DNA from: Lachnospiraceae bacterium
GTDB taxonomy: Bacteria > Bacillota > Clostridia > Lachnospirales > Lachnospiraceae
Assembly (NCBI GenBank): GCA_017539565.1
Contig: JAFYCS010000062.1
Location: forward strand, 1-57,828
Length of the DNA stretch: 57,828 nt
Direction of reading: 5' to 3'
Part shown: piece after piece, positions 55,885 through 57,828 of the stretch
Layout: each line of letters begins with the position of its first letter
How positions within the stretch are numbered: the first letter of the stretch is position 1
Translations under genes and position numbers: made by a program
The notes under the pieces: generated by a model
The model's input: the letters and a program-made list of their open reading frames with translations, nothing else
The model's database searches: none
What the model was told of the DNA's origin: nothing

Positions 55885-56130
55885 TCAGATGGACTCATGG
55901 AATGTACGGCTGATAACGTCTGCCTGCTGCTCGGGAGTAAGCTTGATGAAGTTTACTGCGTAGCCGGACACACGGATGGTCAGCTGGGGATAGTTCTCGG
56001 GATGTGCCTGAGCATCAAGAAGAGTATCCCTGTTAAGTACATTAACATTAAGGTGATGGCCGCCCTTTGTTGCGTATCCATCTAATAAAGATACCAGGTT
56101 GTTAACCTGTGCTGCACTTGCTTCTGCCAT
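55885..56130 (-). CDS. Stand-alone glycyl-radical domain of pyruvate formate-lyase
   Basis: 81 aa. [25 protein letters not shown] and [26 protein letters not shown] match the last 75 residues of pyruvate formate-lyase. The radical Gly is residue 56 in RVSGYA. An AGGAGG site 9 nt before the ATG shows that it is a true gene. It resembles GrcA/YfiD, which repairs damaged PFL, but here the neighbouring PFL core appears to lack this domain, so it may be the obligate radical subunit. Third gene of the pfl operon. Confidence 0.9.
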
Positions 56131-56186
56131 TTTTTATTTCCTCCTAAAAAATTTAAGTATTCTAATGTTCTAATTTTTCGTGATAA

Positions 56187-56282
56187 GAATTGCTCCGTTG
56201 CTTCGCAACTCCCGCAATTCTCACATACGTTCGGAATCCGCTTCGATGTCCTGCGGACATCTTGCTACTTCCTCATGTATGT
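56187..56282 (-). repeat. Structured repeat element, copy 2
   Basis: Same layout as copy 1. Stem A GAATTGC (56187-56193)/GCAATTC (56214-56220) enclosing GTTGC/GCAAC; stem B ACATAC (56223-56228)/GTATGT (56277-56282) enclosing GATGTCC-TGC-GGACATC. The changes from copy 1 keep the pairing. It lies between the 71-aa and 81-aa pfl genes. Confidence 0.82.
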
Positions 56283-56294
56283 TAGGTCTTCAAG

Positions 56295-56332
56295 GTCAGT
56301 GGTTTTTCCATGCAAGCATGGAAACCACTGAC
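56295..56332 (-). other. Long hairpin between the 71-aa and 81-aa pfl genes
   Basis: 17 paired bases with one 2-nt bulge and an AA loop: GTCAGTGG(TTT..)CCATGC with GCATGG(AA)ACCACTGAC. 14 nt past the 71-aa stop. No T-run, so not an obvious terminator; may protect or divide the transcript. Confidence 0.75.
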
Positions 56333-56346
56333 TTTGAATCCCTTTA

Positions 56347-56562
56347 TCACTCATAATCATCAAGTCCCTGATGAAGGGTGGGGACGGAGCAAGCCAGAGG
56401 CGTACGGCTGCAGTCTGTACAGCCCATGGTCTCCACTTCCTTTTTAGCGGAAGCTTCGTCGTCCACATTTACATTCACATGGCCTACGCCTTTGGAGAAG
56501 CCCCCGTCGAGCTGTGCCACAAGATCCTGTATCATCTGGTCCTCTGTCATCTGATCTGCCAT
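56347..56562 (-). CDS. 71-aa PFL-associated Cys-containing small protein, unknown function
   Basis: Not a recognised family. The first half (DLVAQLDGGFSKGVGHVNVNV) aligns with the start of the glycyl-radical domain ([20 protein letters not shown] in the next gene). The second half then differs, lacks the RVSGY radical site and holds C48, C51 and C58 in MGCTDCSRTPLACSVPTLHQG. The Cys set could bind a metal or form disulfides. AAGGAG 7 nt before the ATG supports expression. It sits between the PFL core and the glycyl-radical gene, so a role in assembling, activating or regulating the split enzyme is inferred. Confidence 0.75.
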   Translation of the reverse strand: MADQMTEDQMIQDLVAQLDGGFSKGVGHVNVNVDDEASAKKEVETMGCTDCSRTPLACSVPTLHQGLDDYE

Positions 56563-56626
56563 AGCAGTACTCCTTCCGTATTTATTATCGTCCGCATCGA
56601 CTCACCTCCGCTTCGCTTCGGTTCGT

Positions 56627-56707
56627 GAATGCGGCATTCGCCGCATTCTCCCGGACGCTTTCTCTCACAGATGCAAGCAAGCTTGCTCTGTTCGATCTAT
56701 CGTCCGG
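56627..56707 (-). repeat. Structured element, copy 3 (divergent)
   Basis: GAATGCGG/CCGCATTC hairpin (56627-56648), then CCGGACG (56651-56657) with CGTCCGG (56701-56707) enclosing ACAGA-T-GCAAGC-AA-GCTTGC-TCTGT. Same two-part layout as copies 1 and 2 with different sequence. It lies between the PFL core and the 71-aa gene. Confidence 0.65.
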
Positions 56708-56736
56708 TCGAGCGCGGACTCATTGCTTCGCATCAA

Positions 56737-57828
56737 TTACTTCTTGCTGAGATCTACTTCGATATCGCCTGCGAATACCTTATCCTCTTTGCCCAGAGCG
56801 CCGGGGATGATGGTGAAGGTATTGGAGATACCATCCTGGCTGTCATTGAAAGGCAGCTTAGCAACAGAGCTAAGGGATGCAACAGCACCGTGGGTATCAC
56901 GGCCGTGCAGCGGGTTAGCACCGGGTGCGAAAGGCTGTCCCTTACGACGTCCGTCAGGAGTGTTACCTGTAGCCTTGCCATAGGTTACGTTAGAAGTAAT
57001 GGTAAGAACTGACATGGTAGGGAATCCGTCTCTGTAGGTGTGGTGACGACGGATCATCATCATGAACTTGCTTACAAGGTCATGAGCGATCTGGTCTACG
57101 CGGTCATCATCATTACCGTACTTAGGGAAGTCTCCGGTTGTCTCGAAGTCTACGATTATGCCGTCCTCATCACGGATGGGCTTAACGGTTGCATACTTGA
57201 TAGCGGACAGAGAGTCAGCAACAACTGACAGACCTGCCATACCGGTTGCGAAGTAACGACGTACATCGCGATCATGCAGAGCCATCTGTGCACGCTCATA
57301 GCAATACTTATCATGCATGTAGTGGATAACGTTAAGAGTATTTACATAAACGTCAGCCAGCCACTCCATCATATCCTCGAACATAGGCATGAACTTATCA
57401 TATTCGATAACGTCGCCTTCGTACTTGCGGTACTTAGGACCAACCTGCTTCTTGGATACTTCATCGATACCGCCGTTAAGAGCGTACAGCATACACTTAG
57501 CAAGGTTAGCACGTGCTCCGAAGAACTGCATTTCCTTACCAACGCGCATTGAAGATACGCAGCAAGCGATAGCGTAATCATCACCGTGGGTAACTCTCAT
57601 CAGGTCATCGTTCTCATACTGGATGGAAGAAGACTTGATGGACATCTTAGCGCAGAACTCTTTCCAAGGTCTGGGCAGTCTGGTTGACCACAGAACTGTC
57701 AGGTTGGGCTCAGGAGCTGCACCCAGGTTGTTTAAGGTGTTCAGATAACGGAAGCTGGTCTTGGTAACCATGTGACGTCCGTCAACACCTACACCACCCA
57801 GAGACTCGGTAACCCATACGGGATCGCC
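56737..57828 (-). CDS. pflB: Pyruvate formate-lyase catalytic core lacking the glycyl-radical domain (5' end outside window)
   Basis: Partial: open to the right edge (first in-window residues include [15 protein letters not shown]), C-terminus at 56737. Splits pyruvate plus CoA into acetyl-CoA and formate in anaerobic fermentation. [19 protein letters not shown] has the adjacent catalytic Cys pair (codons 57559-57564). [33 protein letters not shown] is the usual late motif. The frame then ends [13 protein letters not shown], just where intact PFL continues into its glycyl-radical domain (LDGYF...RVSGYA). That part is encoded separately at 55885-56130. Confidence 0.93.

Follow-up and report, generated by a model that had tools for sequence, protein, structure and literature searches.

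Pyruvate formate-lyase (PFL) holds a central place in the fermentation of gut and rumen anaerobes, and its destruction by oxygen, which cuts the chain at the radical glycine, is a textbook case. Passages of PMC8683613 describe how, in E. coli, YfiD rescues the one-piece enzyme after such cleavage. According to the same passages, a truncated PFL(1-695) in complex with YfiD is as active as the wild type once activated; binding of this truncated form (tPFL) to YfiD is undetectable by ITC, its activation is 32-fold lower than that of cleaved PFL with YfiD, and residues 696-733 were proposed as a recognition element for YfiD binding and activation. In benzylsuccinate synthase, accessory subunits bind [4Fe-4S] clusters, as stated in PMC12590467.

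Here we analyse a window of 57,828 nt from the genome of a Lachnospiraceae bacterium (G000), at whose right end the core and the glycyl-radical domain of PFL are encoded by two separate genes, with a third conserved gene between them.

Results

The PFL core occupies positions 56737-57828 on the reverse strand, as identified from its open reading frame, profile match and alignment. Its frame runs open to the end of the contig, where the window ends as well; the 5′ end of the gene is lost and the C-terminal 363 aa remain. The preliminary description held that this core keeps the Cys-Cys site and stops after DLSKK, before the radical domain. Both points were confirmed: the Cys pair is retained as ACCVSS (Cys codons 57559-57564), the C terminus reads DIEVDLSKK, and the Pfam Gly_radical match is limited to profile positions 1-51. 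Against the pyruvate formate-lyase 1 model TIGR01255, the 363-aa part scores 587 bits over profile positions 314-665, to be read against a cut-off of 994 that applies to the whole protein. Two hallmarks of this family, a catalytic core with adjacent Cys pair and a PflA-type activase in the genome, are present, and the radical glycine lies on a separate gene and not on the same chain.

Aligned with E. coli PflB, the core extends to residue 681, close to the end just before residue ~685 that had been expected, and the 81-aa protein encoded downstream corresponds to residues 682-758. The two proteins are complementary, with hardly any of the C-terminal part of PflB missing or doubled. The upstream part of pflB, which the preliminary description hoped to recover, was not found in this assembly of 120 contigs, where the N-terminal half of the core is missing; full cores were seen in two relatives (L049 and L054), which are identical to the window's core over these 363 aa and reach 684 aa when counted from the first upstream ATG chosen.

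The radical subunit (55885-56130, reverse strand; assigned by profile and alignment) is an 81-aa protein whose radical motif RVSGYA contains Gly56 (codon 55963-55965), and its gene is preceded by AGGAGG, as had been described. It fits the GrcA/YfiD definition of a solo glycyl-radical domain protein, scoring 158.6 bits against the NCBIfam GrcA3 model (NF038360; cut-off 158), and the radical subunits of five relatives that were scanned also reach this cut-off. A single terminator had been placed at 55826-55860, and our stem-loop search recovered an intrinsic terminator-like stem-loop closing the gene set on the reverse strand, with its stem at 55834-55855. Three terminator-like sites were found against 1.7 expected in shuffled sequences, and this one has the longest stem of the three. 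The radical subunit gene lies between two copies of a repeat cassette (55718-55804 and 56189-56278) whose blocks of 33, 22 and 21 nt are 471-474 nt apart. Even allowing up to two mismatches, a 27-nt part of the cassette has just these two occurrences in the assembly, hinting at a local duplication.

Between core and radical subunit lies a third gene that the first reading overlooked (56347-56562, reverse strand), encoding a 71-aa protein supported by the alignment of relatives, profile comparison and dN/dS, with a Shine-Dalgarno-like GGAAGGAG upstream. This middle gene precedes the radical subunit gene in 117 of the 118 distinct stretches that carry both genes downstream of a split core, a placement that was itself the search condition. 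Across these stretches, the middle gene stands in frames 0, 1 and 2 relative to the core in 46, 29 and 43 cases, and the radical subunit gene relative to the middle gene in 56, 30 and 32, with a mild frame-0 excess that is inflated by related sequences. The preliminary description had taken the reading frames to be clean and separate. With all three relative frames common, a programmed frameshift or read-through is excluded, and gene order together with the varying frames rules out a sequencing error.

All three genes are under purifying selection, with median dN/dS of 0.052 for the core (65 pairs), 0.069 for the conserved middle gene (27 pairs) and 0.055 for the radical subunit (63 pairs), ratios that are only rough because dS, with medians of 1.00 to 1.40, approaches saturation. 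Such selection, together with a split core in 24 of 34 relatives of the same genus, rules out decay. Measured from the start of the DGIS motif, all of 106 split cores (not all distinct) have their C terminus at 25-43 residues, while single-chain PFLs have it at 94-95 (six of 14, those where the pattern worked); Cys tails fused to the core in further genomes can extend beyond the 25-43 residues. One split core (L257:2459-4585, G622) is broken by an in-frame stop into frames of 287 and 416 aa, the second of which carries a Cys tail, and is either a broken gene or an assembly error.

The search for an intact PFL that the preliminary description proposed gave none in G000, where the one PFL-like match is the core whose 5′ half is missing from the 120 contigs, so that the assembly is incomplete at this very gene. 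Two single-contig genomes give the same picture: G367 has one PFL-like protein and G290 one PFL1-type match, each of them a split core. The remaining weak Gly_radical match of G290, in a 735-aa frame, and the third match of G367, in a 741-aa frame, are presumably class III ribonucleotide reductases. None of these three genomes shows the intact PFL that accompanies GrcA/YfiD. Among the order's genomes listed with a split core, at least 77 in number, 75 yield just one PFL1-type match at the E<=1e-150 threshold, with up to three candidates scored per genome. The second full-length PFL that would have done the work instead was not found in G000; G383 and G406 have two PFL1-type matches each.

A PflA-type activase gene adjoins or lies near the radical subunit gene in most relatives inspected. 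A PflA-like gene follows directly in L193, L187, L188, L044 and L053 (by profile scan in L193 only) and one gene further away in L045, and none was seen beside the radical subunit gene of L041. In G000, one of six matches, on another contig (G000:C38:1044-1733, 297 bits), exceeds the PFLA cut-off.

A split core is present in 24 of the 34 same-genus relatives, several of these being truncated by a contig end; five have a single-chain PFL and five neither. The five single-chain PFLs match the whole radical-domain profile, and the three of them that were placed in the tree fall in a different clade. The preliminary description had considered that relatives might hold an intact single gene at this locus, with decayed copies here; single-chain genes do occur in these five relatives, counted regardless of locus, and the decay does not.

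In an even sample of 392 genomes of the order, at least 77 qualify as having a full-length split core on the criteria of frame length and coverage reaching the end of the core, and 60 have the middle protein at E<=1e-9. Of these 60, 57 also have a listed split core; in the others (G000, G108 and G177) the middle gene lies near a contig end and the core is partial or missing. In 391 sampled genomes of the class, the middle protein was found in 10 at E<=1e-9, of which three lie outside the order. Eleven further genomes of the class, picked from matches to the PDB entry 38lb, comprise nine with split and two with single-chain PFL. The split is old and widespread across families and not a product of decay, and it seems that PFL is assembled from separate gene products in many bacteria of the gut and rumen.

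Phylogenies bear on whether the pieces work together. The single-chain PFLs G161, G361, G277 and G738 and the fused G408, whose chain consists of core, CGCEEVTC linker and radical domain, nest inside the split clade, with support of 100/87 and 89/96 for the enclosing forks. A constraint holding the split rows as one clade was rejected in the full-length tree with G161 and G408 (p-AU 0.0012, in a test that left out both PDB rows and L259 from G610, which moves between trees); another constraint test, with p 8e-6, counted the PDB rows as outsiders and is overstated. A quick tree had placed 56 split cores on one side of a branch with SH-aLRT 95 and included no nested single-chain rows; this grouping is superseded because trees with those rows break it.

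The radical domains carry a matching signature. DAQ is found in 154 of 155 distinct solo domains and also in the radical domains of exactly G161, G361, G277, G738 and G408; of the remaining 23 chain domains, 20 read DAM and three have other letters, and the radical domain of G421 is identical to that of G277. This suggests that the split came first and that the pieces were later re-joined in a few lineages, an order of events that, on unrooted trees, rests on the nesting and the DAQ signature. Gene fusions are classical evidence of separate proteins working together. Because the five nested single chains are, as we read them, re-fusions, the separate pieces would form one enzyme.

Two PDB entries named 'Formate acetyltransferase', 38la and 38lb, are closer to the window's core than E. 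coli PflB is. The 38la chain ends in LGKED, like the split core of G610 (SLGKDD), with which it pairs at 100/94, and 38lb falls inside the split clade. Neither entry is among the PDB matches to the radical domain. Judged by their sequences, and in the case of 38lb without its last 44 residues, both are probably natural split cores. The placement of 38la with G610 changes between trees, and this pair could represent a separate split event.

The middle protein is related to the radical subunit over its first half: residues 5-36 align with residues 3-34 of the latter (hhalign probability 96.6, E 6.9e-10, 38% identity over 32 columns). The homologous part comprises a helix and an HxNV stretch, the latter of which we take to be strand beta-10 of PFL and y-beta-1 of YfiD. 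Passages of PMC8683613 describe that strand as securing the radical loop. The second half is a conserved Cys tail (GCTDCSRTPLACSVPTLHQGLDDYE; 56350-56424, reverse strand), delineated by motif conservation, that lacks a radical glycine. An alignment of 30 middle proteins, picked partly by the Cys motif itself, shows no variation at Cys51, Ala57, Cys58, Pro61 and Thr62. The middle-protein profile matched 209 frames, 42 of them radical subunits and 167 others, and AC..P[TN] is present in 166 of these 167, a count in which 80 of the loci were found via the motif. The exception, the middle gene of G349 (L200, frame 3663-3852, reverse strand), has a stop inside the Cys tail, ends in GCTDCAK before the motif, and to judge from its sequence represents a lineage losing the ACxxPT part.

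Of 108 distinct middle-protein stretches, a set drawn mostly from one lineage and picked by pattern, 97 have 29-32 residues between the putative docking His and the ACxxPT Cys (73 of them exactly 30) and the other 11 have 35-38; from His to radical Gly there are 30 residues in all 42 distinct radical subunits. No Pfam family was found for the middle proteins of the window or G056, while that of G045 gave a sub-threshold match (E 0.05). NCBIfam GrcA3 matches the first half only, far below its cut-off. A search of the PDB found no relative of the middle protein and no middle-type chain; one match to a designed protein (E 0.031) was taken as chance.

Where the middle gene is absent, the Cys element usually persists as a tail fused to the core. 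Among the listed genomes of the order, 20 have a split core without the middle gene, and 18 of the 19 such cores inspected (G270 excluded) have a tail with at least two Cys, for example DCACCEPN, ECGNQACNIPN and ECCSGGACDGATLFEGLD; the core of G223 has a single Cys. Likewise, seven of the nine split cores from the further class genomes carry at least two Cys in the tail, such as DCSNGACSTPTLFEGLD in G529. The remaining two, G670 and G610, have no Cys in the tail, and no middle gene was seen near them. The Cys element is accordingly not indispensable everywhere, as G670, G610 and G223 show. The core-fused tails vary in length, have two to four Cys and lack the docking half, and 19 of 23 distinct tails have the [AC]C-x(1,2)-P-[TN] motif that is also seen in the middle protein. 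This motif occurs in none of 32 single-chain C-terminal parts, among which only that of G408 has at least two Cys. Parsimony counts nine interchanges between separate middle gene and core-fused tail, on a tree with many weak branches. G367, G387 and G410 retain the middle gene at a site apart from both core and radical subunit, whereas in the cultured carrier Lachnospiraceae bacterium YSD2013 (L178) all three genes are contiguous.

Some genomes hold further solo radical-domain genes. G000 has a second one (C110:12441-12659; L055:3475-3720), away from PFL genes. In L055, L060, L061 and L057 this gene has a Crp-like regulator in its vicinity (by Pfam hits in L060), with other neighbours that we take to be bactofilin- and trigger factor-like. 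Its location would fit a true spare copy, and with two solo genes in G000, one copy there could still be a spare. In another sub-lineage (L073:55-1224, with the same gene present in L066, L064 and L074), the second radical-domain gene is found two genes from a flavodiiron-type ODP protein (PF19583), adjoining a Nudix gene; the flavorubredoxin models stay below cut-off for this ODP protein, and the domain scan covers L073 only. Such a setting would suit a role after oxygen exposure.

Discussion

We consider it likely, from the sequence comparisons above, that this locus encodes an obligately split PFL in which the radical subunit carries the radical in normal operation. By sequence, the core (the counterpart of E. 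coli PflB 1-681) is one protein and the glycyl-radical domain (682-759) a second of 81 aa; the latter would dock in the slot that its covalent counterpart fills in ordinary PFL. PflA would then install the radical on Gly56, and catalysis would proceed through the Cys-Cys pair of the core. Cleavage by oxygen would cost the cell a replaceable 81-aa subunit and not the whole enzyme. That core and radical domain sit on separate chains and most likely assemble was the central proposal of the preliminary description, and it is supported by the lack of an intact PFL in the genomes searched and by the nested single-chain forms.

The radical subunit would have to reach into the active site of the core, in the way YfiD does in E. 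coli. Assembly of such a pair would not be automatic, because in E. coli tPFL and YfiD bind and activate poorly. By alignment, the PflB-like part of the split core ends 14 residues before the PFL(1-695) construct, and the radical subunit starts 11 residues before the structured part of YfiD. The Cys element, whether separate protein or core tail, may take the place of the stub. As a weaker inference, it would sit at the slot of the radical subunit, where it would either replace the recognition function of E. coli residues 696-733 or protect the vacant active site by means of a thiol; we favour one of these two roles, docking or guard. An AlphaFold model of a read-through chain of core, middle protein and radical subunit reached a mean pLDDT of only 37 and was unusable.

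In the first role, which we regard as plausible but short of an even chance, the Cys element stands in for the stub and aids binding and activation of the radical subunit. This accords with the need for residues 696-733 in E. coli (PMC8683613), with the homology between a stretch of the middle protein and the radical domain's first half, and with the presence of a Cys element in most split PFLs inspected. However, where the middle gene is absent, it is the Cys tail that persists and not the stub-like half.

In the second role, a tentative possibility, the middle protein docks in the slot of the radical subunit with Cys in place of the radical Gly and, pending the arrival of a fresh radical subunit, caps the empty active site or bonds to the Cys pair through a disulfide. 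The homology of the first halves, the near-equal distances from His to Cys and from His to Gly, and the retention of the motif in nearly all profile matches and most distinct core-fused tails all agree with this. Against it stand the 11 stretches with longer spacing, in a pattern-picked set mostly from one lineage, the core-fused tails of variable length that lack a docking half, and the middle protein of G349, which stops before the ACxxPT Cys. More specifically, and rather doubtfully, the middle protein could be a gene-encoded dummy radical subunit that docks in the slot, offers Cys for Gly and shields the empty enzyme until exchange; if so, the enzyme would alternate between a live and a blank cartridge.

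It is unlikely that the Cys element binds a metal or an iron-sulfur cluster. The cluster-binding set of X-succinate synthase accessory subunits consists of four Cys, but only two are invariant among the 30 aligned middle proteins, the core-fused tails have two to four, and the window's middle protein has no Pfam match. The precedent is that such accessory subunits occur in another glycyl-radical enzyme, one of them promoting thiyl radical formation (PMC12590467). Finally, it is very improbable that the radical subunit is an ordinary GrcA/YfiD spare part beside a decaying pseudogene, with another enzyme making formate: the 81-aa protein lies just above the GrcA3 cut-off, but no intact PFL was found in G000 or the single-contig G367 and G290, the core is under purifying selection, and the same architecture recurs across families.

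Under the split-enzyme reading, the separate radical piece may let bacteria swap the part that oxygen destroys, and what is emergency repair in E. coli would become standard design. GrcA3 would then have a main role and not that of a spare, and the enzyme would gain a new component with a conserved Cys motif, which is the least expected part of the system. A split PFL also makes radical-subunit exchange directly testable with small proteins.

We found no description of a split PFL in the literature searched, which left most subscription papers outside, and it is absent from the available passages of PMC11528403, PMC9403272 and PMC7478625. No text naming 38la or 38lb as PDB entries was found apart from two chance matches; given these entries, others may be working on split PFL.

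Among known systems, PflB (TIGR01255; E. coli, PDB 1h16) shares with this locus the core to residue 681, the Cys-Cys pair and the PflA-type activase; here, by contrast, the radical domain is a separate protein and an extra Cys element is present. GrcA/YfiD (NCBIfam GrcA3, NF038360) is likewise a solo C-terminal glycyl-radical domain, but the 81-aa protein lacks the disordered first 60 residues of YfiD. The preliminary description had set the locus apart from GrcA as a spare domain beside an intact PFL; the separate chain stands, but the radical subunit is itself a GrcA3 protein, and the contrast is one of role. NCBIfam names this family an autonomous glycyl radical cofactor, i.e. a spare part, whereas no intact PFL was found here and the 81-aa protein therefore probably carries the radical in normal operation. 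The accessory subunits of benzylsuccinate synthase are, like the middle protein, small partners of a glycyl-radical enzyme, from which the middle protein differs in its two invariant Cys and its radical-domain-like half.
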